From: Gautieria morchelliformis | Lineage: Eukaryota; Basidiomycota; Agaricomycetes; Gomphales; Gomphaceae | Reading direction: 5' to 3' | NCBI GenBank assembly: GCA_015179125.1 | Contig: WHVA01000002.1 | Coordinates: forward strand, 124,001 to 188,000 | Length of the DNA stretch: 64,000 nt | Shown: in pieces, positions 5,101-39,122 of the stretch | How the letters are laid out: every line of letters starts with the position of its first letter | How positions within the stretch are numbered: position 1 is the stretch's first letter | Notes under the pieces: generated by a model | What the model was told of the DNA's origin: nothing | Database searches by the model: none | Seen by the model: only the letters and a program-made list of their open reading frames with translations | Translations under genes and position numbers: made by a program

Positions 5101-5315
5101 ACCTTATTGAAAAAGCACATCCATAATAATTCATTACTTCATTCAATGCACCGATAACATGTGTTTTACCAGTTCCCCCGGGTCCTGTCAAAAACATACG
5201 AAGTGGAGGAGGATGTTCAATGCTAGTTTCTGATGGTAGAAATTTCAAGTGTTCGTGAAAGGAACGTAAACGGAACCAGGCATCTGTTGCAATAACAAAA
5301 GCAATCCGTTGCTTA
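2117..5315 (-). pseudogene. Helitron Pif1-type helicase half with C-terminal protease-like domain
   Basis: This is the C-terminal half of the same Helitron protein. It resumes at the TA target site (KQRIAFVIATDAWFR). Walker A is GPGGTGKT near 5.18 kb and Walker B is ILFIDEIG near 4.89 kb. The late helicase motif EPAFALTSHACQGQ is cut by the MITE at TTAA. After CQGQ the frame slips by one base before NKVLADLSMSGFAAYVQASRA, so this copy is broken apart from the insertion. Downstream, about 300 residues carry WSCPYDAIIMCLY (about 2.93 kb) and, after another shift near 2.47 kb, HFTCRFL...WWSHDG (about 2.24 kb). These resemble the Cys and His boxes of a papain-fold or ubiquitin-protease-like domain. 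Helicase function is certain at family level; the protease call is inference. Confidence 0.85.
3351..3957. mobile_element. 607 bp MITE with 38 bp terminal inverted repeats and TTAA target duplication
   Basis: The left end (3351-3388) and the reverse complement of the right end (3920-3957) agree at 35 of 38 positions, beginning GRTAGAAGACACCAGG. TTAA flanks both sides (3347-3350 and 3958-3961). The helicase reading frame confirms the boundaries: joining the flanks through one TTAA restores the motif FALTSHACQGQ. There is no coding capacity inside. TTAA duplications are typical of piggyBac-type insertion, although the terminal sequence does not start with the CCC common in that superfamily, so the autonomous partner is unknown. 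CACGTG-type palindromes occur at about 3644 and 3901. Confidence 0.88.
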
Positions 5316-5642
5316 CAGCCGTTTGCAGTCAAGTCTGGACTCCGGCGCGTGTCGTGCTTTTTGCGCAATTTTATAAATATAGACCCCTCTGATTTTTCCA
5401 CCACAACAACTGAGTTTCTCAGCTAACTTCAATAATAAAACTTTCTGAGATTGTTATTAAGTGAATTTCTGCAAAGAGATTAGAGCCAGGAAAGCCGGCA
5501 TTCCCTTGCTGTACCAATTGCAGCCTTAGGAGGCCTTGTTTGAATTTTCCGGACCTTCTGCACACTTTGAAACGGGCGGTCCTTTTAGAAACTGAAGAGA
5601 AAGTCCACTCTGAGATTTTCACGAAGAGATTTCGGTTTTATT
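5316..5642 (+). repeat. Left terminal inverted repeat of Tc1/mariner element no. 1
   Basis: About 327 bp, matching the reverse complement of 8749-9074 with only scattered differences. Both arms contain the same spurious 67-codon open frame. Confidence 0.92.
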
Positions 5643-5707
5643 TCATCACGTACACTCTAAGGTAATACAACACGGCTCTGCAGCGCCTATGTTCTCTACC
5701 TTGGCTT

Positions 5708-7447
5708 ATGGCAACAATAAAGCGAAAACCCAGCCGTCCTTCCAAGGTGCCATCCAGCCTGAGGACAAAAGCAAAAGAGCCTCTGGTGCAGCAGGGTCCG
5801 CCGCAGGTGTCCGTGTCAAGACCTCGACCGACACCCACTTGGGAATCGGCAGTAGTATCCAACACACACGAGGAGGCAATCGCCTCAGACACCAGGCCAA
5901 GAGTCGCCACAACCACCAAAGCTGAGATTGAGGTGGGAAAGGCACTGGTGGCTATGTTCCAGGGCGAAGGTGCGGACATTCGAGCCTCGGCTTTGAGAGG
6001 GATGGACGACGTGTTAGAGAAGGATATAGAAGGAATGGACAAGGATGCACAGGAGGCTGGAAAGGATCTCAGGGAGCTGGGTGTAGAGTTAGTACATAAT
6101 GCATCTTCATCGATTGATGAGGATGAAGATGAATCCGTTCAGGAGGTCGCTGGTAAGGCCGTTCCAACGCATGGGTAAGCCGGGCTGATCGTATGCTATA
6201 GTTTGGGACATACCATTCCAAGTGCCGACTGGCCCCAAAACCATCGACACTCTCAAAATTGCGTCGGATACGTCATGGGCAAGCTTACAACAGCAAATCG
6301 CAGACATAATGGATATCGCGATGAAGCGGCTGAGCCTGGCTTACAAGCTTAGCACAGAAACAAAAGACGCCCCAGCCCGTGTGTTGAATATGCTGGCACA
6401 CTGGCTGGAACTCAAGGACAGGGCAACCGAGATACACGAGGACCGCCTTAGGCAGCAGGGAGGTAAGGGGCGAGGGAAGAAACTCAAAACGTTTGAAGTG
6501 ATCTTGTTCAACTCGAGGCCTAAATAACACGAAGAGGAGAAGGGAAAAGGCAAGGCCAAAGGCAAGGTGGATCTGGGAAAGAAGCGCAAGCTCGGAAACA
6601 ATCACAGTGACAGTGACACAATTAGTGATGGTGATGATGGTAATGTTCCAGGCCAGGCTCGTTGGGTACTTGCGTTGCAACAGAAATACATGTGTCAGGA
6701 GCATGGTGGAGACTACTGTAAGGTAGGTTTTGGTGGTGTCCATATGAAACTAAAATCAAGTGACCTCAGTTTGTGGGGCTTGTTGCTGGTGAGTGGACCA
6801 ATTGTTGTATTATTAGATTAACACTGGACTTGGGATCATTACAGGAGAAGGGTAAAGCGGACAAAGACCTAGATGAATTACCCATGCCGGTGGGACCCCT
6901 TGATGCTCGGGTCCCGGCAAGGGGAAGAACCGGGGTGAGAGATGCGGCTCCTGCGCCACCGGCTCCCCCCTCAGGGCCTCTGGCATATGCTCCACCCGCT
7001 GGGATGCCGGCGTACCATCCTTACTGGGGTATCCCACCGTATTACCACCCATATCCACCAGCATTTAGTACCCCACATTCCACCACACGAGCAAGTGGAC
7101 ACACCCCTCGTACACGGGATAGCTATCCAAGTTCAGACATTGAGGACATTGAAGATCCCACGCTGTTCCCTCGCATTGAAGAATGGCTTACTGCACTAGA
7201 CCAAGGTCCACTCAGTCAAGATGGGCACGCATTTGCGCCACACGTGGCCGCACTTTTGGAGCAAGGCTATATAAGGATCTCACAGTTGGCAGATGAGTTA
7301 ACAGTGCCAGAGTTGCAGCGACACTGCCAAACACTACCTGAAGGTACAGCAAAGGTCATCTTGAAGCAGGCCACAAAACAGGTCGCCAGAATCAGAAGGA
7401 ACCAAGAACGCGAGAAAAGGCATGCGAAGCACAGGAGATATGCATAA
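5708..7447 (+). CDS. Passenger gene of Tc1/mariner no. 1: multi-exon proline-rich protein of unknown function
   Basis: The gene starts 65 bp inside the left inverted repeat with MATIKRKPSRPSK and ends with a basic tail, NQEREKRHAKHRRYA. Recognisable parts, in order: a basic N-terminus; an acidic helical segment (GMDDVLEKDIEGMDKDAQEAG); a second helical block around IADIMDIAMKRLSLAYKL; a Lys/Gly-rich stretch; a Cys/His patch (CQEHGGDYCKVG, with W in SLWGLLL); a Pro/Tyr-rich linker near 6.95-7.10 kb; and a C-terminal module (FPRIEEWLTALDQGP...GTAKVILKQA) that looks like a small SAM-like helical fold. Introns separate these blocks near 6.2, 6.53 and 6.75-6.84 kb. I recall similar multicopy hypothetical proteins in Agaricomycetes but assign no function. 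It is convergent with the transposase, so it is likely transcribed from its own promoter in the 5.64-5.71 kb gap. Confidence 0.72.
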
Positions 7448-7489
7448 ACTAGACTCATATCATTTTGAAGCCGGAGATACTAATACATC

Positions 7490-8721
7490 CTAATACCCAC
7501 TGTGACTGAACCAACTTTCAGCATCCTGTGGCGTAACAGACCACACCGCCTCATGCAAGCGTACATAAACATCAGTATCATCATCCTGCGACATTGCCGC
7601 ATGGGCAAGATCCCCGTTCCTTCGAATGTAGGCTTTGATTGCCGAAAAAGCCTCCTCAATTGGATTGTAGTCAGGCGAATATGGTGGCAAGAACTCATAA
7701 CACATCCCGCTGTGTGCTGAAGTCAAAATGGTAGTAAATTGAACTAGTTAGTGCTTACCGGTCCAATATCATGTCCAGAATGTCCGGACTCTTATGTATT
7801 CTACAGTTATCCATCACAATGACTGATTTTGGCCCAGGGTAGGGATTCATTTGGTCCAATAGCTGATCAATAAATTGCGCAAAACTTGCTGTTGTGAAAG
7901 ATCCCTCGAGAATATTCACATACAATATCCCATCGAGCGACAGCGCCGGTAGAATGGAGTATCTGTGCAGATTTTCATGCTCGGGTCATAGAATATCTAC
8001 TTGTCACTCACCTCTTTCCCCTCACAAAACACGCTTTCCGCAGGGCTCGTTGGCCTCGGATTGCCCAAGCCCTCCCTCGGTAGGTTGTCCGACGATCGGC
8101 AGCACTCTCGTCCACAAATACCAGCTGCTCTCTTGAGTACATACCAATCCTCGCCACATATTCAGCCCGCTTGATGGCGCTCCGTTCAGCAGCAACCCGA
8201 GTAAGCTAACAGACATTAGAACAATGCCGGTCTATGTGAAAATAAATACCTTTTTCATGGAGAACCCAGATCGTCGTAAGGCCCGCCAGATCATCGCCAG
8301 CGATGCAGTGATACCTTGGATGTTGCGCAGAGCTCGCTGTAGTTTGTCCAAATAGGCGTCGCAGTTTTGACGCAGACATCCATGGAGCAGCTCCAACTGT
8401 ACTATGAGTCTCATAGAAAAATAGTTAAGGTGACTGACGTACATTCATATCTGTATTCCTCAGAGCTCTCCTCCTTCGTCTAGATGCGGGGTCGTTGATC
8501 ACCTCACCCGTTCGACGATGCAGAGCTCGGATTGACTTGATTTTGTTGACACTAATACCACTGTAGGTCGAGACTTCGCTGATGGGCAATATGGAGAGCA
8601 TCTGAATAATGGTCCAGCACAGATCCTCAGACACCCGAACACCATTAGGCATGGGTGGGAGCGAACGACAAAGCGCCAGAAGGTGTGGGAACGGTTTGGA
8701 TTTGACACTACAAGTCTGCAA
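7490..8721 (-). CDS. Tc1/mariner (IS630-like, DDE_3) transposase no. 1
   Basis: Cut-and-paste transposase of the element, in at least five exons. The N-terminal exon (from about 8721) carries a helix-turn-helix-like region (SEVSTYSGISVNKIKSI). The catalytic triad is visible: the first D in FVDES (about 8.1 kb), the second in VIVMDNCRIH (about 7.8 kb) and the E in YSPDYNPIEEAFSAIK (about 7.66 kb). Introns fall after RGKR and just before the LPPYSPD exon, at the same places as in transposase no. 2, which supports common descent. No stop or frameshift is evident in the exons I could follow, so the copy may be functional. The exact start codon is uncertain. Confidence 0.87.
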
Positions 8722-8748
8722 AGCAGGATTCTACCCTAACGCGATGCG

Positions 8749-9074
8749 ATAAAACCGAAATCTCTTCGTGAAAATCTCAGAGTGGACTTTCTCTTCAGTT
8801 TCTAAGAGGACCACCCGTTTCAAAGTGTGCAGAAGGTCCGGAAAATTCAAACAAGGCCTCCTAAGGCTGCAATTGGTACAGCAAGGGAATGCCGGCTTTC
8901 CTGGCTCTAATCTCTTTGCAGAAATTCACTTAATAACAATCTCAGAAAGTTTTATTATTGAAGTTAGCTGAGAAACTCAGTTGTTGTGGTGGAAAAATCA
9001 GAGGGGTCTATATTTATAAAATTGCGCAAAAAGCACGACGCGCGTCGGAGTCCAGACTTGACTGCAAACGGCTG
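8749..9074 (-). repeat. Right terminal inverted repeat of Tc1/mariner element no. 1
   Basis: About 326 bp, inverted copy of 5316-5642. It ends CGGCTG, immediately before the TA target duplication. Confidence 0.92.
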
Positions 9075-9077
9075 TAA

Positions 9078-12000
9078 TACTCAAAGTAAATTTTTTACAA
9101 ATTCCCAAACATAAATCAATGGCTGATATGGCAGGTGGATTGTCATTCAAAGAACATACAGTGGAATGAGGTGGTGCCAATGAAGCAACAGCTACATGCT
9201 TAATATCCTCCTGAGTGAACGTGACAGTCGGTGCTGAGTGCATTTGCTGGCTATCAATATCTGATGTGTTATGGCGGTTCTGCATAATCAATGCTTCTTG
9301 CTGTTTAACTTCTGATTTCCATAATTTAATCAGAGTAGGAGATAATGTGGGCAGAGGAGGTATACTATTATTTAAAGTAAGATGAGTATAATAACCCTCA
9401 TTCATGAACCAATTAGATGATTGTAATAAGCCAAGTACATTGCCAACGCTTGGAAATTTCCTTTTAAATTTGATGGGTCAATATGTAAATCAATGTCAAC
9501 ATCCTCATCAGTACCTGCTAAGATGATACTCATTTCATTTGATCTCTTAAATAACAGATCATGTTTTCGTATACGTTCGGCATCACGTTCATCTTCACAT
9601 TCATACATAGCTTCCCAGTTTGACATTACACGCAAACTAAATGCAGAAAATGCATAACACTGCAACACATCTTCAAAGGATTCATTCTCAAAAATAAGAG
9701 GAACAGTGGGACTAAAAGGTTTGAAGTGCGCTACCATAAATAATGCATATTGATGTTCACTACTTTTTCGAGGAACTGAACAGCCAACAATTCTAGGGAC
9801 TCGTAAATTAGATGCTAACTCAAACATTTCTGGATCAGTATGTAACACTAATCCATGTGTTTGCAAGAGACGATGTGGATATTTTAAGGCAAAGTGTTGA
9901 TAACTAGCGGCATGACTTTCATCAATATCCTTTAATTTCTGGACACGTACACACCGAACAAAGTCATAAAAATGTAACTGACCAAGGTCATCATCACAGA
10001 ACCAGTAATTGAATACTTGATTATTTTCAACTAAGGAACCTTTATAATTGACACTGAGTCTAATACTAGGATGCTGCGAAGGTTCATCTGGTATATCAGA
10101 CGACATTAAGTTACCTTTCCGGTCACCATAAAGGTCTTGAACATGCATTAATAATAACCCTGATGACATTGCTGTGGTTTTGTGCGACACCATAGTGTCA
10201 TCTAATCCTCGCAAGTATCTTACAGCCTGTTGTCCATGGATTTATTGTTGACGGGTGTATTGCGAAAGACAACGATGTAATAGGAGTTTTGCATGATCGA
10301 CATTGGAGGATGGCGGTCGGTTACGAACAGAGGATACAGCATTTGACATCAATGATAACATCTCATATGTTTTAAGGTCCATTTTGGTGATATAATCAGT
10401 AATATAAAACATGGCAGCTTTTGCTGCATGGCCAGACAATATACACTTGATATCATGATTGTGTCGGCTCATTACGAGAATATATGGATTAAAAAAGTTA
10501 ACAGTAGGATCCCGACACATAATATAAACAGAGTTTGTATCTTTATCAAAAAATGAATGGTCGATAATCTCATGTGGGAACAAAAAACGACAGTTATTGC
10601 TCTTTCCATACTTATAACATACTTTCCGATGGGTATGTCTCTGCAGAATTTCACCACATGCTTTTATTTCGTATACGAAATGTTCATTCCACTCTTGCCA
10701 TTCAAAGGGTAATGCATCCATAGCTGGGAGTAAACGTGGCTGTTCAATACGAGGTTCATGATGAGGATCATGCTCATAATCTACATTTGGCAGATGATGG
10801 TAACTAATAGATTCAAAATAAGCAAAAAAACGACGTTCGAAATCACTATCTGTTCTAAGTCTTTTGTGTAACTCAGATGGATTAATACCACCTAATAACC
10901 AAATCAAAAAATGACCGTGAAAGTTAGCATGTTCTGTTAATTCTACGGTTCCAGACCATGCTTGTAAATGTCCAAGAATACCACCCGCTGTACAACTAGT
11001 ATTACTTTTATAATCCCATCCAAATAAATGTTCAAAAATCGTCCGCATAGAAAAAGTAAAAAAATCTGATGCAGCAACAGGGTCTTTTGCCAATCTAAGA
11101 GCACGTTCACCTATAGAAACCAAAGTAGGATACTGAGCTGTCAAATCAACATTAATATCTCCATACATTAACTGAAAGATAGGACTATGAGCTGCAGAAG
11201 GATTTAGTGTTAGATAAATATGTGGCATCCCAAACAGTCCAAAATAGCTGTGGATACAACTGCGGGCATACAATTTTGAACTTTCAGAACCAGGAATATG
11301 GGCTGAAATCATATTTACATGATGTAACAAATCCACACCGACACGATCACTGTCTGATAAACCTTCTGAATTCTTTTCATGCTCTAAATGAGTAGCCAAA
11401 CTTTCAAGCTGTTGAGATGTTAGACTACAAAACCTCTCGGCTATTTTACCAAACTTCTCACGCCGGACAGTGAATGATGTATGCAAGTGACTCAAGCGTC
11501 TTTGATACATATTTAACACTACAAAAATAAAAAATTTATGATATCGGAACAGACGATCATCCAAATCGAGGTAATATTCTGCCTGGGGGTGAAAGCCGAC
11601 AGGACTAACACGTGAGTCATCTTCGAAACCACCAAGACCAAGGGGATATAAAGTAGGGAACATTCCAGGCAATAAAGCAGGATTGTTATATTCATTGATG
11701 GCATCACCATGAGCAATGACAAGATCAGGGACAGATGTATCATGTGGAATTAAGTTACGCAATGCCGCTGCTGCAAATGAACGCGCAGGCATATGAGAAT
11801 TTTCTGGATCTGATAAACCCATTGTTTCAAGCATAAAATCCATCTGTCCAACATCATGTGAAGAACCACCTGCTGGATGAGAAGTAAATCCCGCTGTTTC
11901 TTCTTCAAAAACCTCATTGGGATGACTGTCATGATCATACACAACTCTTTCTTCAATACCTGGCAAATTATCATTTTCAGGATACTCCTCTAAATTAGAA

Positions 12001-13495
12001 AGAGACAATGGCATATCATAATACAGTTTGTTATTCTTTTTCAAAAACATCAAAAAACTCCAAACTTTGTGTTTTCGCACATGAAAGAACATGCCAAGTT
12101 TATGAGGATCAAACTTTTGACGACCAACAAAAACCACCGATAAGACGGCATTTATATCACCAACAGTACGAGGCAATGAATTTGCTGTAGAAATAACATT
12201 CATCTCATGTGCACAGGTATTACCATGATACACAAATGGATCTTTCCCATCGGAAGATTCATACAAACGAGTAACATGAGCAGTAGTTCGATAAATAGCA
12301 CAACACATTTCCTCAATCCAAGTCAAGTCTTGAAGTTCAAGAGGTAACTGACCACGGTAAAAGTTGTCAGCCAATGCAAATCGTGGCATTTTGCCCGTCC
12401 CAGAGCATTGTAACAATCAGCACATAAGTTAATCACTGTAGTTTGGTCACTGTCATGAAAAGATACCGCTGCCTTCCATAGTAGTAAGCCGTTCAATACA
12501 GGTGAACTGTAAGAGACATCTACATGATTGGTCCGATTAAAATACTCAATCAAAAAAGGATCTGAAGAACGAAGAATGGACAAATTGTGAGGCAACTGCC
12601 CATAAGGATGCACAGTTATCGAATAAATTTGCTGGCTTCCATGAGCACGTGCACAGGAAGCACAAGAAGATGGTAAGACATAACAGGTCTCATTCCTATA
12701 TGTCCTCAAGCAATCTTCAATAACCGAGGCAGAAAGAGTCTGTGGCCAAGATGCTATGACTGCCAACTTTTCATCAAAAGCTTCTCTCTGTACACCATCG
12801 CGAATTTGAGTACGTAACTCTTTTTGAATCTGTCCGTGATATGATCGGTGACTATCGTGAGTCATGACACGAGTCACATCAACACCATATTCATGACGCA
12901 AAATACAATCAATTAGTACTTTTCGTTGTAACGGAAAATGTGTCTGAAAAGGTTCATAATACATTAGTACCTGCACCAGAGAAGAGTGATCATATTGCCG
13001 AAGAGCATCACAACGTTCCCGAAAAACAGTAATGAGACTGTCGACCAACGAGGCATAATTATTAACAATGTTAGGCCTTCTTGACACATGTAAACCTCGA
13101 AGACTCATCTTGATAGCTGATGTATTTAACGCACGAGAAGAAAAGGAAAAATTTACCGAAAACAAATCATTATACGGCAACGTTACAGAATTAACGTCTG
13201 TCCTATGCGGAAAGTCTGTAGGAGGCTGACGCAATAGCGAAAAGATGCATTGACCATAGGTAGCTTCAAAAAGACTACCTAGCAAATAGGACCGAGGTGA
13301 ATTGACATCACATTTAACAGCAAGGGGGCGAAGAAGAGAAATAAAGTCAGCGATAGAACAATTCCCAAAATACTGACAGTGATCATAAAAAAATCCGACG
13401 ACGATAACTCGCAAGTGCTCCCTTGGAAAATTAATGTAGGAACGACGAGGACGAACTTTACGCAAGCACACGAGTAAGTCCTTCTTGATTGCCAA
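9078..13495 (-). pseudogene. Helitron Rep (HUH endonuclease) half of the Rep-helicase protein
   Basis: This codes for the N-terminal region and rolling-circle replication initiator of the Helitron. The HUH motif is seen as FHGHFLIWL near 10.9 kb. The two-tyrosine motif is YITDYITKM near 10.4 kb, with Y, Y and K in the expected spacing. Upstream, Cys pairs such as CASCARAH and CADCYNAL match the usual N-terminal zinc-binding part. The reading frame is damaged. It shifts near 12.4 kb, between CADCYNALG and GKMPRFALADN. A single TAA stop interrupts QQ-IHGQQAVRYLRGL near 10242, with the same frame on both sides. Another shift lies near 9.4 kb. The segment ends in frame at the TA where the Tc1/mariner element inserted (SLNDNPPAISAID...FTLSI). 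Nicking and transfer activity is therefore expected to be lost from this copy. Confidence 0.88.
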
Positions 13496-13830
13496 ATCCA
13501 GAGACAGAATTCACTGATCGTTGTTAAAACTCATCCACGATGGATTACCATCGCAGCAAGTATCGACAATTGATTTTATGGATGACTTTAAATCATTTAA
13601 AAATTATAGTTTCATCATATAAAGCAACGGTAACAGGGACGATACTGTCAGGCAGCAAACAGTCATGTGACAATAGGAAGCGCAACTCACGAGCGCGGGA
13701 GAGGACATTTGGGAAAGGCATGAAGGCAGACTAAGAAGGGATGGTGTGGGAGGGGGGAGAGGGGAGGGCGTTTTCACAGCAACCCATCGTTATCTATATA
13801 TAAAACTTACCCCTCTTGGTCGGAGAGACA
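13496..13830. other. Helitron 5' flank / junction with the DIRS element
   Basis: There is no gene here. The stretch lies upstream of the Helitron Rep frame and includes the candidate Helitron 5' end near 13809. A purine-rich tract (about 13740-13775) follows. The precise border with the neighbouring DIRS element cannot be fixed from the sequence. Confidence 0.4.
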
Positions 13831-14552
13831 CGGGCATGGACCCTCCCCCCTCGGATGAGTCAGGGCCAGCCAACAAATTCGAATGCCGCAAGAGAAGGAA
13901 TTAAACTCAGACCATCACAAACCTCGCATGGTGAAAAGCAGCGGGAAATCAAGGACGCGGAGATAGGCGGCCACTCCTTCGCCAGGAAAGGAAAGGTAAA
14001 GTAAGGAAAGGAAGGAATAAAATGCAGGAAAGGGTGCGACAGGCCAATAGGAAACACAAAGAGCAGCAGAAGTCAGGCCGACCCAACGAAGAAGGCTCTT
14101 TACAGAGCACGCGTGGAATGGAATCCCTGGTAAAGAACACAGAGCTCGCCGGTTGAAAGTGAAAGTGCGGCAAACCGGCAAAGATGGCCGCTGATTAATG
14201 GGTTGAAGCCCGCTAAGGACTTGAGCAAGGCAAGACTCTGTAGGGGCAGTTATCAATCTTGCTGTGGTTTTGGGGGAGAGGACCCAGAGGTTTGCCGCAG
14301 GCGACGTGGGAGATCCCGCAGTCAGATGTGGGTGACGCGGGGCGACATGATCGACCCTTGGTGGCAATCTGATGGGAGCACCCGAGATCATGTGATCCTG
14401 AGTCACGTGACCCCCCCGGGGAACCCTGGAATCCCTCGAGCATGAGGGTGCGGAGGGGAACTCCAACACCCACATTCCGTCATTCCGCGAGGAGTGACGG
14501 GATGTGAGTTCCTCTCCGAACTCACACCCCCAAACCACGCAGTGGGAATGCG

Positions 14553-15959
14553 CTAGAACATTTGTAGGCTTCTACATACAATGGACATGCATGACATAAG
14601 TGATGAGTGTGAATCAAGGGCTTCACCCACGAAATCTGGCAGGATCTGCTCAATTTTCCTCCAATACAGCAGGAACGCGCTGGATGACCACCGGCTGATC
14701 ACCATCACAATCCAAGGGTTGATACCCAGCATGAGCATGTGAGTAGTTCCCCCGATCCTCAGGCCGTACCCTTGCAGGCTGCCGAGACTTTCTTTAGCCC
14801 ATATCTCGTTGCACCGGTTCAAGAACCAGTCTCTGGTCAAAGGGGCCCAGTTCCCATCTGCCATCTCAAAGGCAAACAGTGGAGCGTGGGATGGGATGCG
14901 TGCGTTGCAAGTTAAGTGCTGCTCTAGCGCGATGATAGGGCTCGTGAGGTCGTCCACATCGATCAGGTTGATGTCGTCACCCATATGGCACTTTGTCTTT
15001 GAGTAAGGTATGTGGAAGGTTGTGAATTTTCGGCCGTGTCTAGCAACGCCGCGGGAAATGGTGGTAGAGCGGGAAGCGTGGTACACGGGGTCAAAGGCGT
15101 TGCGGGAAGGAATGACAAGCTCAGTGAGTCGGCAGCAAGCCCAGAAGGCTGTGGTTGCAGTTGCGTAGACAGCTGCGTCAAAGGCATTCGAGAGGTTAAG
15201 GTTGTTTTTCAGACTGAGCAGATGCTTCTGCGTGACAGGATCACGGTGGGGACGTTTGTATTCTGGGGGCGTGAGGTTCGCTGCGCCTCTCTTAGCTAGA
15301 GTGAGGGCCTCACCACCATGCCACGGTGCATCTTGGATGATGTGGTAGCGGTATAGTCCCGCGAGCCAGTTTGCAATACACGATTCGCTCACTTTACCTG
15401 CGCCGCAGTTGGCAACGAATAAGCATAGAAGTCTCTCTGACGCGGGGATACGATTAGATTCAGGTACGGATATGGAGTCACAATACTGATGGAAACGTAG
15501 AAGGCCTGCCCCCCAGTTCTCCCGTGTCTTTTTGACCACGGCGTTCGTGAAGACTTCATCGAGGCGTGAAACGTGGCTGGGTGGGACTTCACCCTGGAGC
15601 GCCGCACGGCTGGCCAACGAGTGTGGGGACACCCATGCGGTGATGCGATCACGGGTGAGGACGTGGGGACGGAAGACAGACAGTGCAAGAAAATTTTTCG
15701 GGTCTTTGGAAACACATGGCTTGCGACCACGAGCAGGTTGCGGCAGAGGTGGGGCTGCCAAGCCCACCCCATCTGCTGACGAAGGGCCGGCACCTACCAG
15801 TGCAGCTTGCAAAGGCGAGTTGCTAGACATGGACAAGAAGGGGTTGGAGCTCACTCGGGAGCGTGAATCGGATGGGCAGCCGTTTTTCAGTCGGCCCCAG
15901 CTCACCGCGAGAGATGGGGTCCGACCGGTTGCTCGCCGAGGCAACGTATTCAGAATCAA
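14553..15959 (-). other. DIRS element: tyrosine recombinase part
   Basis: This 468-codon frame has the phage-integrase-like fold expected of DIRS recombinases: an Arg in the CRLTELV segment, a GLRIGGTTHMLMLG segment and the terminal YWRKIEQILPD region with a candidate Tyr nucleophile. It is the reason for placing the element in DIRS and not in Ty3/Gypsy. Confidence 0.85.
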
Positions 15960-18290
15960 TGGTGACGTTAATCGGGGTGAGAGTGTGGCTGATGCGTCTC
16001 ACGGACTCGTTTCTGGGTACATTGCGTGATCTACCGCGGGCAAGGGCGTCAATCACGCCTGTGTTATCGCTGTAGATGCGTATGTGAGAATCGCGGATGC
16101 CTGCATCTGCAATCCATAGAGCTGCCAGCTTGATGGCCATCGTTTCGGCCCAGCCGATGTCGCGACCTGCGCGGTTCCAGTTGCTGCTTAGCCTCCATGC
16201 TGCCCATCGGCCGCCGATCAGCAAGCCGATGCCCCAGGAGGTAGATGCGTCGACCCAGATGTCATGGTCGACTGGGGTGCGTGGGAGGATGCTGTGGGAG
16301 ACGTTTTCTTGTGAGAGTGTCGTTTTCCACCATTCTATGTCATGACGGACACCTCTCGGAATGAATCGCAATACAAACTTGTTGTTTTCGAATGTGCTGA
16401 TGTAACGAGTGAGGGCGGGCAGGAACGATCTGCCGAGTGTGAAGACATATGTGACGTGTTGGAGGGTGCCGAGGAGTTTCATGGCAATCACCATGGTTGA
16501 CTTGGGTCCGGCAAGGAATGCGATTACCCATGCGAGGTATTTCACTCGCTTGCGCTGGGGCATGGCGACTGATCGCACCTGAAGGTCCCACAGGAACCCA
16601 ACGTATTCTGAAATGAATGAGTATACGCTGCCCTTGACGTTCACCGGGTGCCATGGGACGCCGAGCAGCAGTGTGATTGCAATTATGGTATCGAGGTCGT
16701 ACAAGTAAATGTAAACTGTGGTGTGGCTGTCATCTGTGCGTGAATCAACTGGCTCTCTGGCGTTACTGAAGTCATCGACCCACTTCCATGTGGGCCCAAT
16801 GCCGTTTGCTTCGAGGATGTCTGCTATGGCGTCAGCAATGTTGCCCTGGATGCCTCCCGCTGTTGTCAGACCAAAGGGAGTACGTGATCGATGTAGTAGA
16901 ATCCCCTCCAGTGGAGGGCAATGTAGCATTTGTGTGCTGGCAGCACCGGCGAGTTCCGGTATGCTCTTTGCATATCCAAGCACGCGACCTGGGTTCCTGG
17001 TGGTGCTGTGATGAGCTGCGGGAGCAGGTTGCATGAGTAACAGTTCATAGGGCAAATTCAAAGATGCGGAAGTGAGTGATGACGGTGGTGAGTGATCGTG
17101 ACCCGTTCAGGTCTGCTAGTGTGTGTCTGTGTGTGAGCTCATCCAAGTCTGCTGAACCGTTCAGTTCGCATGTAACGCTCAGCGGCGGTTGTCATATGCA
17201 TGTGTGGCCTCGTTCGAAGGTGTCTGTGCATGTTTGCACCATGTGTGTCGATCGGTGTGGATGACGGGATGGGGAATGGGGTCATGTCGGGGTGGGTAGT
17301 ATGATCGATACTCACATATTGCTCGAAGATCCATGCGGAACCCCAGCGGGTTGGGAAATCGTCCGAGTTGAGCATGTCATTCACGGAAATGCCGTATGCA
17401 TCTTTTTTGGATAGGTTTCTGATGAGGCGGAACTTTCCGTCCCCCGGTTCTTTTTCTGCTAGTCCCAGCGGTGATGTGCGGAAATGTCCGCCAAAGATGA
17501 AATGTGTCTCGTTCAAGGTGAACGGGCCCAACATGCGTCCCGCCTCGACCTCTTCTGTTATGTGAGCGTCAACGAACTCCGGGTGGTCTAGAGCCGTCTT
17601 CATGTTGGGTGGAATGAACGTGTGTGTCAAAGGTGGTGGGTTTCTGATTGGCAAACCCTTTTGGATGTCGGTGACAAGGTTGTGGTATCGTGACGAAAGG
17701 CCGGTTGCCTCCAGGGCCGTCTTGAAACCTCCCGCGCTGCACGGTGTGGTGTGTCTGTAAAGTTCAGGTGCGAGTGCACTGCGCCGCTCCGTGGTAAGAG
17801 ATGAGGCAAAGGCTGCATCTATGAGGGGGGTGTCTGGTTGGATTGGCGGAGCATGATCCTTGCAGGTTGAACTTGTAGCATACGGCTGCGCCGTCCGAGT
17901 CGTAGGTGAGGCGCTTGTTTCTGAAGGAAACATTTGTCTTGCAGTCGGGGTGGTTGTGTAGGTGTCTGGCGTTGCAATTGATGGATATGTGGGTGTCTTT
18001 GCTGCCGCAGCGAAGGCATAGCTTTGGGGAGGAATGCTGCATCTCCCTGTTCCGAAAGGATTGGCTGCTGCTCCCCATGCTCGTGCCTGATCTGGTGTAG
18101 CTTGTGCTGGGTGTGTATGGTGAGTTATACGGCTGGTAGCGGGATTCGCGGTTGCCAGACTGGGAGCTTCTAGATGCGGCAACTCTCGTCTCGACAAGTT
18201 CTGCGGTGTGTTCGTCGTTGATGTCCCTGTGCACCATGGCATAACACTCATTGTATTCCTTGCTGAGGATGTCTGGAATGAATGGCTCAA
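15823..18290 (-). other. DIRS element: reverse transcriptase / RNase H part
   Basis: Reverse transcriptase signatures FGLTTAGGIQGN and KWVDDF lie near 16.8 kb. An RNase H domain follows (IWVDASTSWGIG, AETMAIKLAALW, YSDNTGVI) near 16.0-16.3 kb. The part overlaps the gag-like frame upstream and the recombinase frame downstream, as is usual in compact DIRS elements. Confidence 0.85.
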
Positions 18291-19197
18291 CCATTAGTTG
18301 TTGGCGCATCGAAATATCCATGTAGAGGTAAATTTTGAACTTCTCTTCCATGTTCGGGTCACGAACTGTGCGCTCGAAGTGTTCCTTCCAGCCTTCTAGT
18401 ATTCTGGAACCTGGTTCGCAGCAGAGTTCCAGGCATCGCAGGAAGTTGTGGTAAGCTTGGTTGAATTGCGTGAACGTAAGTTTTCTCTCGTCGATGACGC
18501 GAATGGGCTTTGTCAGCGACTTAAACGACTTGATGTCTCGTTCGAGGCGGATGCGTTCCATGTTCTTAATGAGGAAGAAGGACAGAGGCATGTACACGCG
18601 GTGTTGGAACATCGTTATGAGTTGTGTGGGGATTGTGTGGATAATCGTCTGCTGCATGTTAGCTGTCACCATCGCCGTGGAGAACGTCCATGATGGGTTG
18701 GTGTTCGGCGTGGACGTGGGTGCGGCGGCGGTTGCGGCGTTGGTGTTGGTGCTGGGGATGTTGCTTGAGGTGCCGGGGATCGAGAGGAGGCTCAGCTGTG
18801 AGATGTTGGGGATTGGAAGGGTGGTTGTGGACAGCACCGTGACAGTCGCTGTCGGCCCTGCGGGGTTAGGTGGGATGGATGAGTTTGTGAGGTTCGTCGG
18901 GACGCGTCTGGAAAGGATCGCGAATGTGTCAATCAACTGCTGCTCGGATAGTAAGTCCTCATCATCGGAGACGTTCGTGTCGCCATTGATTCTCCTGGCG
19001 CTCCTCTGCGTGTTTCTAAAGTTTCTGACGCTGTTGATGTCAGCTAGTGCTTTCTGACTCATCTCTTCTTCCGGGGATAGAGCGGTCGTGGTCGGTGGCC
19101 CTGTGCCGACGTTGCCTGGTGGGGCCGTGCTCGGTTGTCCGGTCCCGGTGATGAGATTTGGGTGCCCTTCCGACGCTTCGGGTGGTCCGGAGGTCAT
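17764..19197 (-). other. DIRS element: gag-like part
   Basis: This long frame has a Thr/Pro-rich N-terminus, a central helical region and a C-terminal Cys/His-rich zone (CLRCGSKDTHISINC, CYKFNLQGSC, HRCSLC). The arrangement is typical of the first frame of fungal DIRS elements and is presumed to form the particle and bind nucleic acid. Confidence 0.75.
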
Positions 19198-19343
19198 GGT
19201 GAGTGGGCTTTTGTGAAGGAAGTGAAGTTCGCGAAAGAAATACTCGAAGAACTACGGGGAGATGGAGGTAGCGGGAAGAGTTCTGCCAGACTGACAGGAA
19301 GACGATTTCTTTTTATTTGACAGCTTAGCTAATCGCCCTGTTA

Positions 19344-20468
19344 CACCCGTTTGCAGTACCTAAGGCGCGCGTCGGATTTGCTTCCGTTTTAGTGCGCAAA
19401 CTTCGAACAACGATATCTTGCTTGATATCGCTCCAATTCGCTTGAAATTTCATATCTGAAGCTATGTGGACTATAGCTAGGGCATAGAACTAAAAAATCC
19501 AAATAAAACAAGCATTTTTTATTTTGCATTTTGGGTGCTGAGGGGGGAACAATGTCAAGCTTAGCTTACTGTATGTAGTTCAATGCAGGTTTTAATTTTG
19601 TTTGCTACTTTGTACTAATGGTGAGAACCCACTACAGGGGAATCTCCAGAAGAGGGTGTCTTAGGATTGGAGAGGAAGGGCTTAGCTTCTTCTGATGTTG
19701 GATCAGTGAGATCTGACAGTAGGCGTTCATTCTCGATGTTGGATTTCCTCCTGTGTAGCATAAGCCCCGAAAATCTGAGGGATCATATAACGTGGATCAT
19801 ACGCATCATCAAAGTTCGTAATAGCATCTTTGATCCCTTCCACACCGAGTGCCAATTGTCAGGGTTCACGCATTTCCTTCCACAAGTTTCTATTTCCTTC
19901 CATGAGTTTCCGTTACCTTCCGTCAGTTTCCATAACTTTCCGTCACATTCTGTCACATTCTGTCACATGTCACATTCCGTCACCTTCCATAACCTTCTAC
20001 AAGTTTCCGTCTCCCCTATTATGTAAGCCTTGCCAGCGCTATAAGACTGTAGCCTGTGTGGTGGTGTTTCCTCAGCTTGATCTCTGAGGATACCCACTAC
20101 ACAGGCAAGTCCCCATGTATCTATCGTTGGTAGAGTTATAAACTGAGGATACCCACTACACAGTTGGTCATTGTCCTAGTATCGGCTCTTATCTCCTTGA
20201 GTATCTTTGGTTGTGGCTTCGTCATTAGTGTTGCCCTCACACCAATGCACCATAAGGCAACTTCGCCGATCCTGACATGTTCTTGAGCTCGGAAACCGCG
20301 GGGGCGCACACGTATGTGGTGGGGTGAGGGGCGCGGAGGTGCTGGGGTGGGCGAGCTGGTGTAGGAGGACGGGGTGGTAGGGGAGCGGGCGGCGGCGGGT
20401 GCGGGTGTGGGTGCAGGTGCAGGTGCGGGTGCGGGTGCAGGTACGGGTGCAGGTGCGGGTGCGATTGC
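19344..20468 (+). repeat. Left terminal inverted repeat of Tc1/mariner element no. 2 (contains solo LTR)
   Basis: It matches the reverse complement of the right arm in two blocks, 19344-19856 and 20242 to about 20468, separated by the solo LTR. Small indels also distinguish the arms, for example about 10 extra bases near 19550. The inner end dissolves into a GGGTGC hexamer array. Confidence 0.9.
19857..20241. mobile_element. Solo LTR (Ty3/Gypsy-type), 385 bp
   Basis: It begins TGTCAGGG and ends CCCTCACA, so it has TG...CA ends with a short inverted repeat. The 5 bp sequence CCAAT flanks it on both sides (19852-19856 and 20242-20246). The right arm of the host transposon shows the same locus without it, which fixes the borders exactly. 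Inside are repeated CCTTCC/TTTCC phrases, common in basidiomycete Gypsy LTRs, and two copies of a GAGGATACCCACTACACAG phrase about 60 bp apart. It is a fossil left after the internal part was lost. Confidence 0.87.
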
Positions 20469-20470
20469 AG
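20396..20470. repeat. GGGTGC/CACCCG hexamer array, left arm
   Basis: About 12 imperfect hexamer units, GGGTGC alternating with AGGTGC, at the inner border of the left inverted repeat. The unit read on the minus strand, CACCCG, equals the outer terminal hexamer of the transposon. Confidence 0.85.
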
Positions 20471-21093
20471 CACGGACGACACTGAGCTCATCGTGAGGAT
20501 GCTGGGCATATGGTTAGCAGGGTGCGGGGGCGTCGACACACCTTGACACCCAGGGGACTCCACGCAGGCACGCAGGGGACATGGGGGATACCGGCCCAAA
20601 CGGCAGCCGGTAGAGGGACGGGAGCGCGGACGTGACACGACTGGGCTGGCGGCCCTCGAGGCGTGCGAGGGCGTCGCCGCGGTTGGTGTTGCGGTAGTGC
20701 GTGGAGGCGCGGGACGTGGCGGTGGTCATCGCGAGGGTGTTGACGGTAGGAGTGATGGAGCCGCGGTCGGTTGGGGTGCGGGTGGACAACAGGAAGGAAC
20801 TGCTCGTGCTTGTACGAGTAGAAGGGGCGCTTCAAGTCACAATGGTGGACTTGTAGTTGGGACGCGTGACAGCCCTTTCAGCGAGGATGTAAAGTAAGCA
20901 TAAGTAGCAAACTCACCAATAAAAACGGGATAGTGGCCATTCGACACCTGAAAATTACACTTGAGTTGGGGTTCAGCATTGGGAGTAAGGGTGCAAATGC
21001 TGTCGCACGATTCATGTCATAGAATTCTTGGTCAGGGTGTGTGTTTCGGGAACTTCCATTCTCCTTGTATGTACTACCCACACCATCGCTCAT
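20471..21093. other. GC-rich interior of Tc1/mariner no. 2, no gene recognised
   Basis: A GC-rich stretch lies between the left hexamer array and the transposase. One minus-strand frame (about 20.51-20.79 kb, with NTNRGDALARLEGRQPSR) looks more protein-like than the rest but matches no family I know. It may be a remnant of a captured exon. Confidence 0.35.
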
Positions 21094-22297
21094 ATGCCTT
21101 GCCCTGGCAACCCTAAACCTGTTCATCACATGTACAGCAAGGATCTGCGGGATCGCGTTATACACCAAAAATTCAAGCCCAACAAGAAATCAACCGATAT
21201 TGCAATTGACCTCGATATGTCACTACGTGTAGTTCAACACACAATCAAACTCTGGCGGGATGTTGGAGATGTCGTGGCAGAGCCAAAGCGGCTATCTCAT
21301 GGGTCAAAAATGACCTCAGCTCAGAGTGAAGTAAGTAATTCATGTCTGTGTTTAGCTGTAGCTTATTTTATTTTATAACAGTTTCTTCTTGCACTTCTTG
21401 AACGCTCACCCAATCTTTACCTCGATGAGCTTGTCGAAGAGCTAGAGGTGCAGCATGGTATTTTAGTAAGTATATCAACTGTCTGGAGGACGCTTCGACA
21501 TCTTGGCTTGCAAAGAAAGAAAGTGAGTCATTAAATCCTCGAAGAATGACAACCTTTATATTTGTCTCCAATCCAGCTTTCATGGGCAGCCGCAGAGCGC
21601 TGTGAAGCGTCGCGGACTGCTTTCCAGTTTCGTATTGGTAGTGAACCACCAGACCATTTGGTTTTCACAGATGAAAGCGCAATTGACCTTCACACAACGT
21701 ATAGACTAATGGGATGGGCTTACAAGGGATGTAGGCCTCGAGTGCGAGCACGTTTCCAAAGAGGCAAAAGGTAACGATTTGTGCACGGGCCTATTATTGT
21801 ATCGCTAATATCCACTCAGATTTTCAATCCTTCCGGCGCTCTCACAAGATGGAATCATCTATAGCCATATCAAATTAGGGGCATACGACGGTCCAGAGTT
21901 CCTTGGGTTTCTGAAGGGCCTTTTAGAGGTAATGAACCCTTACCCGGCACCACAGAGTGTTCTTGTTATGGATAACTGCGCCATTCACCACATACCTGAG
22001 GTCTCACTCTTATGTGCCCAAAGGTTTTTACCATTATAACCTGTTTTCACTAGTGTCTAATCTTGCATTTGCAGAGGAATCAAACTGATGTATCTTCCGC
22101 CATACTCGCCCGATCTCAACCCGATCGAAGAATCATTCTCCTCCATCAAAGCTCACCTCAGACGTCATGGTGCCGAGTTCCGTGCATGTGTTGCAAGTAA
22201 GGAGAGGGCTGAGCTATTCATGTTTCTCTACGAGGCACTGGATCGGATTACACGCAGACATGCGCGAGGGTGGATGAAGGACTGTGGCTATCTGTAG
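21094..22297 (+). CDS. Tc1/mariner (IS630-like, DDE_3) transposase no. 2
   Basis: The gene starts MPCPGNPKPVHHMYSKDLRDRVI. An N-terminal helix-turn-helix domain (STDIAIDLDMSLRVVQHTI) is followed by a second DNA-binding segment (NLYLDELVEELE...ISTVWRTLRHLG). The catalytic acids are in VFTDES (about 21.67 kb), VLVMDNCAIHH (about 21.97 kb) and YSPDLNPIEESFSSIK (about 22.12 kb). Introns of about 50-60 bp interrupt it near 21.33, 21.52, 21.77 and 22.02 kb, each with GT-AG ends. The exon borders after RGKR and before the LPPYSPD exon are shared with transposase no. 1. The frame appears open throughout, so the enzyme could be active. It ends with HARGWMKDCGYL. Confidence 0.88.
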
Positions 22298-22488
22298 TGC
22301 AGTTGTACTACTGTAATGTAATTTCTTTGTTGTCAGAATGTTGAAAATTATCTGCAATGTGATGGATGATATTGGTAAACAACACTTAGTAGTGCAAAAA
22401 GTACTCATTGTAAGTTCCCGCTCTTCCTACAGTGGCTACAGGATCTCATAATATTATATGTCATGCATTACATGCGGTCTTTCCCAGC

Positions 22489-23720
22489 TCATCCTCTCTC
22501 TTCACCTGTCATTTCCCCCTCATTAACATAATCCCAACTCTCTGGCAGGTCTGAAAGAGATTCAAGCCCAATCGTTACATACTGCCTGTATGGCTCAGTG
22601 GCCTGTAAAGTGTAGCCATCGGCGTCCGAAAATACAACCTTAATGAAGTCTGGTTTCAGCCATTCCAGAGCAGTCTCCTGAGAAAGCGTTAACCATTGAA
22701 TCAAGAGTTTGGAGAATGGCTTCAAGCCGGTGGAGAAGTTTTTCGCGGCATCCTGTTGCTTTAACCTATCAAGGAAACTTCCCCTAGCTTGTAACACAGG
22801 TAACTCGTTGGAGAGCATCATTTGACGGTAATTCTGTTCTAGTAGCGCGAGTGCCCCCTTGGTCTCCAGAATCTCCAGAATCGACCAAAATAAAACCCAT
22901 ATAAACAACTCCAGGTCATCAATTACTTGGTGCACAACTTGCGTTCCAGAGTCCCAAGCAACAATCAGCGCCTGAGACATGAAAGGCAGCGTACCCTAGA
23001 ACAATGTAAATCACAAGCCGCACACAACAACTAAAGACCCACCGAGCGATGCTTTGCTAATTCCCGCTTCTGATCCATCCAACAAATCGCCTGGTCCCCA
23101 TCGCATATGAATCCCACACATCTAGTAACTTCTCGAATCACGGCAAAACTGAAGCAAATATAAAAAAAACGAAAGGACTGATGTGAAAGACGGTACGTAC
23201 TCTGTCACAGGCAGCCGCTCAGCTTCATCCATCAGCATGACGTTCCCGACGCTTACGTTGCGGTGCAACCAGCCGTTCTTAAACAGCCCAAAATGCCCTG
23301 TCAATCACCATTATAGGTAAATCATGTTCGATGCCCTCTTCGTTCACATACCCAACATGGCGTGCACTATGCAACGCACGAGCAATCGAGGACTTTGTGC
23401 AGCTCACAGTGACGTCCCTCGGGTCTCAAAAACAGATCGCATATGTATTCGTTCGTCAGGCCTAACCCCGGTGTATGGCTCTGGTGCACACACGGGCCAA
23501 TACGTTGCGTCATCAGGTATGAGCTTATCCATTCCGTCCTCGACAGGGTATGAGGCAAGGATGTCTGGCAGTCCAAATCCACCCGATAATGCTCGAAACA
23601 TTGTGCCTTCTTCGTTATGGGTTTTCAATGGCCATGAATCTTTCAGAATGACAGTGTCTGGCAAGAGAAAAGATATGCCTCCCTTCAACCTCAAGGGTTC
23701 TCGACCGTCAGTCTCCCGCA
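22489..23720 (-). pseudogene. FunK1-type protein kinase, passenger of Tc1/mariner no. 2
   Basis: Pieces of a fungal FunK1 kinase read on the minus strand. VILKDSWP (about 23.66 kb) is the ATP-lysine strand typical of FunK1. FGLPDILASYPVEDG follows, then LHRNVSVGNVMLMDEAE (about 23.25 kb), the catalytic loop. CDGDQAICWMDQ (about 23.1 kb) sits where the metal-binding segment belongs. QVIDDLELFIWVLFWSILE (about 22.92 kb) is the FunK1 DDLESFFWVL-like helix. The last exon ends NEGEMTGEERG. The catalytic HRD is HRN, replacing the aspartate needed for phosphotransfer. The usual long N-terminal region is missing: the frame runs into the hexamer array and the inverted repeat. I read it as a captured host gene, 5'-truncated and probably inactive. 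Confidence 0.72.
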
Positions 23721-23872
23721 CCTGCACCTGCATCTGCACCCGTACTTGCACCCGTACCTGCACCCGCACCCACACCTGCACCCACACCCACACCCACACC
23801 CGCACCTGCACCCGCACCTGCACCCGCACCCGCACCCGCACCCGCACCCGCACCCGCACCCGCACCTGCCGC
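23719..23872. repeat. CACCCG/CACCTG hexamer array, right arm
   Basis: About 25 units of CACCCG, CACCTG and CACCCA at the inner border of the right inverted repeat. In one minus-strand frame it encodes a Val-Arg/Val-Gln repeat that would be fused to the start of the kinase frame, and in other frames His-Pro or Gly-Ala repeats. These are translations of the repeat, not separate genes. Confidence 0.9.
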
Positions 23873-24525
23873 CGCCACCACCCACTCCCCCACCACCCCG
23901 TCCTCCTACACCAGCTCGCCCACCCCAGCACCTCCGCGCCCCTCACCCCACCGCATATGTGTGCGCCCCCGCGGTTTCCGAGCTCAAGAACATGTCAGGA
24001 TCGGCGAAGTTGCCTTATGGTGCATTGGCACTCGGTGCGGAAGGGATCAAAGATGCTATTACGAACTTTGATGACGCGTATGTTCCACGTTATATGATCC
24101 CTCAGATTTTCGGGGCTTATGCTACACAGGAGGAAATCCGACATCGAGAATGAACGCCTACCGTCAGATCTCACTGATCCAACATCAGAAGAAGCTAAGC
24201 CCTTCCTCTCCAATCCTACGACACCCTCTTCTGGAGATTCTCCTGTAGTGGGTTCTCACCATTAGTACAAAGTAGCAAACAAAATTAAAACCTGCATTGA
24301 ACTACATACAGTAAGCTAAGCTTGCCCTCAGCACCCAAAATGCAAAATAAAAAATGCTTGTTTTATTTGGATTTTTTAGTTCTATGCCCTAGCTATGGTC
24401 CACATAGCGTCAGATATGAAATTTCAAGCGAATTGGAGCGATATCAAGCAAGATATCGTTGTTCGAAGTTTGCACGCTAAAACGGAAGCAAATCCGACGC
24501 GCGCCTTAGGTACTGCAAACGGGTG
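23722..24525 (-). repeat. Right terminal inverted repeat of Tc1/mariner element no. 2
   Basis: About 800 bp, inverted relative to the left arm, with an uninterrupted empty site for the solo LTR near 24033. Its inner 150 bp is a CACCCG hexamer array about twice as long as the left array. Confidence 0.9.
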
Positions 24526-25223
24526 TAATCAGCCCGGCTGTAGCGCGCGGCTTCGTGAACTCAGCCTAGCGCTTCCGCTTCCAATAGGTTAAATGATGAG
24601 AGGACGTTGGCGTTACTGGGAGCAAGGTCTATAGACTCTATAGGATAAAAGTAAGTATGCTCACCGTTGCTAAAGAACTTCTCCTGGCTTCTCTTACCCG
24701 TGATGACAAGTGCGCACCTCCCGCCTGCCGTATCCTTCCTTGCTTTGGTGTCTCTAAACGAGTTCTTCCATGCAACCTCAACATGATCTTATGCAGGGAG
24801 GAGGGCGCTCTGGATGAAGTGCTCAGTGAGCCGATTGTCCTCGCCTCAACCACGTTAAGGAAACGATCAAGAGCACATGCAGTACTGGCTTACCCTGACG
24901 GAGTTCTATGATCCATAGCGACGGTGAAGCTGCGCAACTTTGTCAATCTTGTTTAAAAAATTCCAAGCTATCTTTGCTTGCGAAGCTGGTCTTTCTCTGG
25001 TACATGAAGTGGGTATACATGGGTCATGGTGGCTTGAATGGTTTACATGATCGGAAAAGTATGCGTGCGCCAACGTGCGATGCCGAACCTTTCACTTGAG
25101 AACTCGAAGACAAGCATCAAACGGAACAAGGAAAGGCAGGGAGTGTCTCATCAAGCAAGTTGCGCAAAGGGAAGGTAAGCCAGTCTTCAGTAGTGATGTT
25201 GGGCGGATACATCTAGCGTCTAA
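24526..25223. other. Flank of the transposon, no clear gene
   Basis: From TAATCAGCCCGGCTG onward this is the sequence that adjoined the other side of the insertion site. A minus-strand phrase near 24.62-24.80 kb (WKNSFRDTKARKDTAGG, GKRSQEKFFSNG) is protein-like, without a family I can name. It could be a relic exon. The rest shows only short frames. Confidence 0.35.
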
Positions 25224-28200: not shown

Positions 28201-28274
28201 GGTCGACCTCCCCCTAAGATGAGTCACAGGGCTCGGAGGGTAAACCAATAGGATAAGCCAACGAATGAAAAGTG

Positions 28275-28332
28275 GAGTGCCGCATATTTGCGTGTTGCAG
28301 GCCCTCCCTCTCCTTCGGAGAGTGTCGGGGAT
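28275..28332 (+). repeat. Dispersed stem-loop repeat, copy 1
   Basis: The sequence CCCTCCCTCTCCTTCGG with a downstream GTCGGGG forms a stem capped by CTTCGG. The same block, with similar upstream bases (GTGGA..GCATA), occurs at about 38948-39011 and inverted at 43930-43990. Confidence 0.55.
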
Positions 28333-37600: not shown

Positions 37601-38011
37601 AAATACCCACAGTAAGAGAAGCGCTCAGCAAACTCGCAGATGACGATCAACATGGCGGACAACCTGCCCACGGTACCGTCACGATGACTTCCTGGACATG
37701 CATCGTTCAAAGACAGGGAGCGCTCACGGGAGTTGATCAGCGACGCGGGGAAGAGTTCTTAGTTCTTCCTCTGTGGGGACTTGGTGTCCATCGTCATCTG
37801 CAAGCTCAGCTTGGCTAGATTTAACGGTGGACTTCTCCTCATCCAAATCATATGCAGGCTTTTCCACGACGTTGACATGTGCTGTGCTCTGTGGCTTCAG
37901 TGGAACCCTCATTGACACAGCACCTCTTTCTGACCTTCCATTTCTGGATACGTTATGGGCGGGCTTCAGGTCAACTTCAAGAGAGAGGAAAGAAGCACCA
38001 ACACTGCACAC
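34640..38011 (-). CDS. POT/PTR-family proton-coupled peptide transporter
   Basis: Multi-exon minus-strand gene. The hydrophilic N-terminus (HQVPTEEELRTLPRVADQLP) is followed by LSAMLIVICEFAERFSYCGY (TM1, the family signature). NFIERPLPVGGNGAGSPP and QTAVSVSTFFSLWAFIMPIFG come next, then IMADQYWGRFKSIVVF, IGTGG/KANVSPLVAEQYTKRGQ and DANLTI. RYVKTPARGSIIIEATKVLGLAYSG and DEIRRTLFACK follow, then MQAPAYILVGTAEVRKNQ, TGLEYAFTKAPLRMKSVVFALYFLTSAVSNAISL and GGILFYWLFRDFDKAED. These match PTR2-like importers of di- and tripeptides in the plasma membrane. The start could be Met at 38011 or at 37912. The 3' end is uncertain: the frame can run on to about 34345, or a GTATGT at 34650 may start a last intron. 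Part of the gene is copied at 40870-42349. Confidence 0.83.
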
Positions 38012-38559
38012 AGGACCTCATATCTCAGACCCATATAGAAGAAGCCCTAGAACGCGAGTATCAAAGAAGTTTCGTCAAGTGGACCATGGACCACGCGGCG
38101 GCGGCGAAAGATAAGAGGCAGGGCCACCGTATATTGCTAGGCTCCCAGGACTCCAAACCATCCAATTTGGTAACACGTCGGACAGAGCAGAAATAAGAGC
38201 AGACAATCTGTAGCGTTCAACGTTCATTCCCTTGTATCAAGTAGATGGCCTGGCCGGCGGTGTTGTTTATTACATAAAGACTCGTGTTTGCGCTAGCGGG
38301 GTCATTCACCGCCGCTCAATTCTCGACGAGGACGACGTGCCACGGGCCGGTACTTAGCGCCGGGTCGAACAAATACTAACATCACAGATAACAAACCAAA
38401 TATTGTTTCTGCTAGGTATGTTGATTTTGGCCAGAATTTCCGAGCCACCGGGAAAAGGTCTATGGGCCTCGGTCTATAGACCTTTGGATAGACCCACACC
38501 ATATGCACATGCATATCTGCATTATAAATACAGCAACGAAAGTAAAGAAACTAAACAAA
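38012..38559. other. Upstream region of the transporter, no gene
   Basis: No gene seen. It holds the presumed promoter of the transporter and the second copy of the dispersed palindrome (38427-38482). Confidence 0.45.
38427..38482 (+). repeat. Dispersed palindromic repeat, copy 2
   Basis: Inverted relative of 28144-28200. The core around GGTCTATAGACC is nearly identical, and the flank TGGCCAGAATTTCC matches with a few changes. Confidence 0.6.
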
Positions 38560-38972: not shown

Positions 38973-39011
38973 GGAGTCCCTCCCTCTCCTTCGGAGAAAG
39001 TCGGGGACTCC
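38973..39011 (+). repeat. Dispersed stem-loop repeat, copy 2
   Basis: GGAGTCCC pairs with GGGGACTCC, and an inner stem is capped by CTTCGG. The inverted copy is at 43930-43968, and a diverged copy is near 28302-28330. It lies upstream of the orphan gene start, so it may sit in the 5' leader or promoter. Confidence 0.55.
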
Positions 39012-39122
39012 CCCTCCTGCGGCTGTCTCACCTACCCGCTCCTTAAATAATTTGCACCTCTGGTAACACAAAATACAACACAGCGACCTTCTTGCACTCT
39101 CCCACATCATCTCACAATCCAC

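Follow-up and report, generated by a model that had tools for sequence, protein, structure and literature searches.

Two diverged IS630/Tc1-type transposons with long inverted repeats and second genes in a contig of Gautieria morchelliformis

We analyzed 64,000 nucleotides of the gomphaceous basidiomycete Gautieria morchelliformis (assembly GCA_015179125.1, contig WHVA01000002.1, positions 124,001 to 188,000; hereafter the window, numbered from its first base) and describe two DNA transposons within it, E1 and E2. The evidence supports an IS630/Tc1-type family of two members, both of which have long inverted repeats and contain a second gene. We consider it very likely that E1 and E2 are diverged members of one fungal IS630/Tc1/mariner cut-and-paste family, in which long inverted repeats enclose a transposase and a convergent second gene that differs from one element to the other (Table 1). 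A preliminary description of this DNA had recognized the two elements as related, and the tips, TA borders, arms, and transposases discussed below confirm that observation as a whole.

The two elements end in the same way. A 15-base tip, TACA[C/G]CCGTTTGCAG, is found in exact form at 5314-5328 and 19342-19356 and, in reverse orientation, at 9062-9076 and 24513-24527, and it is found nowhere else in the window. The tip pattern TACASCCGTTTGCAG likewise has four exact matches in the 64 kb, all of them at predicted tips, versus none in 100 dinucleotide shuffles, which bears out the earlier claim of common ends (TA, then CA[C/G] and a shared sequence). When up to two mismatches are allowed in the 13-base core of the tip, there are 5 matches versus 2.94 expected, a number not beyond chance; thus, it is only the exact form of the tip that exceeds chance. 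TA flanks both elements on both sides, and the empty site left by removing either element (5313-5316 for E1, 19341-19344 for E2) reads TTAA, with the element having sat in the central TA. TTAA accounts for 152 of the 3,135 TA sites in the window. The shared site may reflect target preference or chance; it was noticed post hoc in two elements and is a lead at most. Past the tips, the best blastn match between whole E1 and whole E2 is 16 bases long (E 0.36), and the arms of E1 align poorly with those of E2 beyond the first 16 bases, so that the inner GC-rich block once thought to be common to both elements is a weak resemblance.

The transposases carry the relationship further. The E1 and E2 proteins are 41% identical over 292 residues (BLASTP, E 1.6e-77), and the catalytic residues D151, D235, and E270 of E1 are kept in E2, the last two being separated by 34 residues (DD34E). 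Both proteins match the Pfam family DDE_3 (101.5 bits for E1 and 96.9 for E2; cut-off, 28.6) and the IS630 model of the prokaryote library of NCBIfam (144.9 and 150.3 bits; cut-off, 100). Three of the four introns occupy identical columns of the alignment, the first being displaced by two columns, and both genes have the phases 0, 0, 2, and 2; the earlier statement that the intron positions are the same therefore holds for all but that first intron. Judged from sequence, namely, the DDE domain, the DD34E spacing, and the TA duplication, both transposases belong to the IS630/Tc1/mariner superfamily. Searches against PDB sequences gave, for the E1 transposase, a best E of 0.36 (SETMAR) and, for a profile of the two transposases, Sleeping Beauty at E 0.0054, in fourth place behind three designed “Cake” proteins.

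For E1, the surrounding DNA provides an independent test, since the element interrupts the helicase frame of a Helitron. Removal of E1 together with one TA yields a 587-codon open helicase frame across the junction. When the junction was trimmed by 11 different values (-3 to 7), the 3 values equal to 2 modulo 3 gave 586 to 588 codons and the other 8 gave 28 to 475; that is, the sequence itself calls for a duplication of 2 bp, modulo 3. Based on this restored frame, E1 arrived as one unit with the second gene already inside: it inserted with both of its genes and duplicated 2 bp of its target. The preliminary description had raised the question of whether the inner genes might be ancestral to the locus. 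That of E1 is not, because the DNA around it does not belong to the Helitron.

The inverted-repeat arms are long, as had been claimed, with 336 bp in E1 (326 bp in the preliminary description) and about 734 bp in E2 (740 to 800 bp). The E2 arms match over 513 bp at 95.7% and over a further 221 bp at 93.7%. They differ in extent because the left arm holds an insert between two copies of CCAAT, at a point where the right arm has a single uninterrupted CCAAT; this insert reads as a solo long terminal repeat (LTR) and would be younger than E2. The inner parts of the E2 arms are GC rich (69%), and both end in the same hexamer microsatellite, with 11.5 copies at 20395-20463 and 25.3 copies at 23715-23866. 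The suggestion that the repeats are “expandable” is thus an interpretation of a length difference that is due partly to the solo LTR and partly to the GC-rich block with its microsatellite. Direct repeats within the arms, scored as the outer 70 bases versus the rest of the arm, were equaled or bettered in 271 (E1 left), 297 (E1 right), 251 (E2 left), and 27 (E2 right) of 300 mononucleotide shuffles, and further internal repeat pairs are present beyond this comparison. No repeats below E 0.3 link the two flanks of E2. The right arm of E2 also contains a 53-codon open frame (23992-24153), the C-terminal part of which can be read in the left arm as well with a few amino acid changes; no Pfam family matches this frame at cut-off.

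Table 1. Features of the two transposons and of the Helitron that surrounds E1
Feature	Position	Strand	Length	Details
E1	5316-9074		3,759 bp	transposon with transposase and second gene
E1 TA target duplication	5314-5315 (left), 9075-9076 (right)			basis: sequence and reading-frame test
E1 left arm	5316-5651	+	336 bp	97.9% identical to right arm
E1 right arm	8739-9074	-		inverted-repeat partner of E1 left arm
E1 second gene	5708-7447	+	520 amino acids	predicted exons 5708-6152, 6202-6462, 6535-6788, 6845-7447; open
E1 DD34E transposase	7490-8652	-	324 amino acids	predicted exons 8652-8443, 8396-8250, 8205-8012, 7962-7759, 7709-7490; open
E2	19344-24525		5,182 bp	transposon with transposase and second gene
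E2 TA borders	19342-19343 (left), 24526-24527 (right)			basis: sequence only
E2 left arm	19344-20462	+		two blocks, 19344-19856 and 20242-20462
Insert in E2 left arm	19857-20241		385 bp	TGTCAGGG...CCCTCACA, TG...CA, between two CCAAT copies
E2 right arm	23728-24525	-		contains hexamer microsatellite
E2 DD34E transposase	21094-22297	+	332 amino acids	predicted exons 21094-21330, 21382-21522, 21577-21770, 21820-22023, 22075-22297; open
E2 second gene	22489-23712	-		5'-truncated FunK1-type kinase remnant
Helitron	3953-12416	-		PIF1, Helitron_like_N, DUF6570; helicase frame interrupted by E1

What, then, are the second genes? As had been described, each transposase faces a different, convergent multi-exon gene, with 42 bp from stop to stop in E1 and 191 bp in E2; the gene of E2 is, in addition, truncated and broken. 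The second gene of E1 is modeled with GT-AG introns of 49, 72, and 56 nucleotides, of which the second has an AAG acceptor, a weaker signal that was chosen by judgement. Its predicted protein reaches the cut-off of no Pfam family. Two single-sequence structure models have a mean predicted local distance difference test score of 61.4 and 66.0, and a fold search with the first of them (Foldseek) returned 36 matches, the best at E 2.4. A reading of this protein as ubiquitin-like plus SAM-like is unproven, the supposed ubiquitin-like stretch being modeled as helices. Instead of having been captured from a host, could this gene have belonged to the transposon lineage all along, as an accessory gene (such as one for a regulator or partner of the transposase) that was lost or replaced in E2? 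The layout of E1 is tight, with the second gene starting 57 bp inward from one arm and the transposase 87 bp inward from the other, and with the short interval between stops given above; moreover, the gene is open over all four exons and belongs to no Pfam family at cut-off. However, E2 holds no relative of it (the best match between the two second proteins is at E 0.35), and the layout of its protein may resemble that of a gene family that is expanded in mushroom genomes. We regard an accessory gene as a serious possibility, toward which we nonetheless lean somewhat less than toward its opposite.

The second gene of E2 is of a different kind. Its pieces, separated by introns of 54, 79, and 47 nucleotides, together match PF17667 (Pkinase_fungal) at 97.2 bits (cut-off, 24.1) over profile positions 261-386 of 387, with an internal stop read as X; taken separately, the pieces score 19.5, 24.0, and 30.9 bits. 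Profile positions 1-260 are unmatched. Within the piece, the match begins at residue 84, and the frame upstream of it leads into the right-arm hexamer microsatellite, from which we conclude that the kinase domain lacks its N-terminal part. A TGA interrupts the frame at 23404-23406, and the catalytic loop, expected as HRD in a kinase, reads HRN. The predicted product thus belongs to the FunK1 family but is a broken fragment, not a complete domain. The FunK1 domain and the short introns fit a fungal source. Does this remnant stem from a later, unrelated event, such as a nested insertion or an exchange at the microsatellite, that would make E2 an ordinary transposon with debris? The broken frame and its 5' side, which runs straight into the right-arm microsatellite, are in keeping with such an event, and E2 has received another later insertion, the solo LTR. 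Conversely, the layout of E2 is convergent, as in E1, and lies entirely between the arms, although a target duplication flanking the kinase was not looked for. A later event is possible, and we are inclined to doubt it. As for chance or an assembly artifact, in which unrelated inverted repeats would surround ordinary genes, a second large inverted duplication in the window (35258-44327) might reflect assembly trouble, but the identical tips with their TA borders, the transposase gene structure common to both elements, and the helicase frame restored by removal of E1 lead us to reject this explanation as extremely improbable.

Several observations weigh against a two-member family of gene-bearing transposons. 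The family in hand consists of two copies in the window of one strain, and all gene models are splice models made by hand from the genomic sequence. Matches to an N-terminal helix-turn-helix (HTH) domain, several in E2 and one (HTH_33) in E1, are all below the Pfam cut-offs. The PIF1 match covers profile positions 24-198 whether or not the joined flank is included and stops short of the junction, so that it is the reading frame, and not the domain match, that argues for the join; the E2 target is identified from sequence only, by its TA pair. The E2 kinase may be debris. Finally, no relatives were found in a viral collection for either transposase, their alignment, the second gene of E1 (without its first exon), or the kinase, nor were any found for the transposase alignment in prokaryote genomes. 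The joined helicase piece has no relatives in the viral collection either. These two collections should not hold fungal DNA, and the absence of relatives from them therefore says little.

The most likely mechanism is one in which a presumably functional transposase binds the common tips, excises the whole intervening unit, and reinserts this unit at a TA. Tip binding, excision, and TA insertion are established for the superfamily. We suggest that promoters located in the near-identical arms drive transcription of both genes of an element. In E1, both start codons lie near such arms and TATAAATA, a TATA-like sequence, is present in both (left copy at 5372), and thus each gene may be driven by its own copy of a single promoter. 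The kinase fragment would have been taken up from the host. Entry of a second gene could have occurred through faulty end use, through template switching in gap repair, or, for E2, through exchange at the microsatellite. A passenger-carrying family is plausible, though not proven.

How unusual would such elements be? Ant1 of Aspergillus niger is a fungal Tc1/mariner-type element that holds part of an amylase gene and has short repeats. ITm elements measure up to 2 kb, usually with one gene and typically with short repeats (PMC4120734); E1 and E2, at 3,759 and 5,182 bp with two genes each, depart from this norm, which is typical rather than strictly defining. The IR-DR group of Tc1 elements (Bari, Minos, Paris, S, Sleeping Beauty, and Frog Prince), however, has ends of about 250 bp (PMC4120734), and E1 and E2 resemble this group in their DD34E transposases and inverted repeats of hundreds of base pairs. 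Long inverted repeats in Tc1 elements are therefore not new, and the contrast with ordinary Tc1/mariner elements that the preliminary description drew is half right: it holds for the usual single gene and the typically short repeats but not for this group. Further papers supply other parallels. A review-type phylogeny remarks that extra open reading frames can occur in DNA transposons generally (PMC7325037). The Sclerotinia Tc1-mariner families, in five table rows, share with E1 and E2 the superfamily and the presence of introns in transposase genes and differ in size (1.8 to 2.3 kb), repeat length (48 to 62 bp), and intron number (0 or 1) (PMC4188875). TIR_1 of Pleurotus likewise shares the superfamily and DDE_3 and is shorter, at 1.6 kb (PMC4905642). 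MarorTcMar-18 of Marasmius oreades, a Mariner-type mushroom family, is close to E1 in length, at 3,972 bp, and a shorter copy similar to it inserted in the course of that study (PMC9674265). The gene-carrying Helitrons of Pleurotus ostreatus resemble E1 and E2 in enclosing other genes within transposon bounds and differ in their rolling-circle mechanism (PMC4289320). No Tc1/mariner element carrying a kinase is named among the titles and abstract openings listed in searches of the open-licence literature.

Elements of this kind would broaden the range of structures in a superfamily whose members are usually described as having a single gene within at most 2 kb. To generalize further, could there be a mushroom IS630/Tc1 lineage with an exchangeable slot for a second gene between near-identical, promoter-bearing arms, a lineage that spreads lineage-specific gene families, including FunK1 kinases? 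We think this unlikely; if true, such a slot would help explain the scattered expansion of these families. The FunK1 kinase family is expanded in several fungi, and its members in Paracoccidioides are enriched in nonsyntenic regions, which the authors attribute to lineage-specific duplication; the part of that paper concerned with the expansion mentions no carriage of FunK1 by transposons (PMC3203195). With a kinase remnant between the ends of a compact cut-and-paste element, one route for the spread of FunK1 becomes directly testable, and the two copies hint at a way in which such families might spread but cannot prove it. Of the wider proposal that these transposons move host-type genes, what stands is that the E2 kinase is of a host-type family and that E1 entered as a unit; mobilization of functional host genes is not borne out, given that the kinase is broken and the E1 gene belongs to no family at cut-off. 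The interpretation first offered for this DNA is, overall, supported in part: the family with long repeats, the second genes, and the unit insertion of E1 stand, whereas the contrast with Tc1/mariner elements stands by half and the movement of host-type genes is borne out only in part.

Other features of the window lie outside the two elements. In the inverted duplication at 35258-44327, 38610-40593 matches 42350-44327 in inverted orientation at 98.9%, and 35258-36744 matches 40870-42349, also inverted, at 96.0%. In the inverted copy the blocks adjoin each other, whereas on the left they are separated and their order is switched, a pattern that insertion of a circle or tandem junction would give; it could also reflect an assembly fault. 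Minus-strand frames between the duplicated blocks (36742-38017) look by eye like a peptide transporter, with no Pfam match up to E 1 in the four pieces scanned. Minus-strand open frames at 14553-19251 look by eye like a retroelement with a tyrosine recombinase, with no Pfam match at 0.01 in the four frames scanned. Lastly, a 61-base repeat (28271-28331 and 38947-39007) is 77% identical between two copies about 10.7 kb apart.

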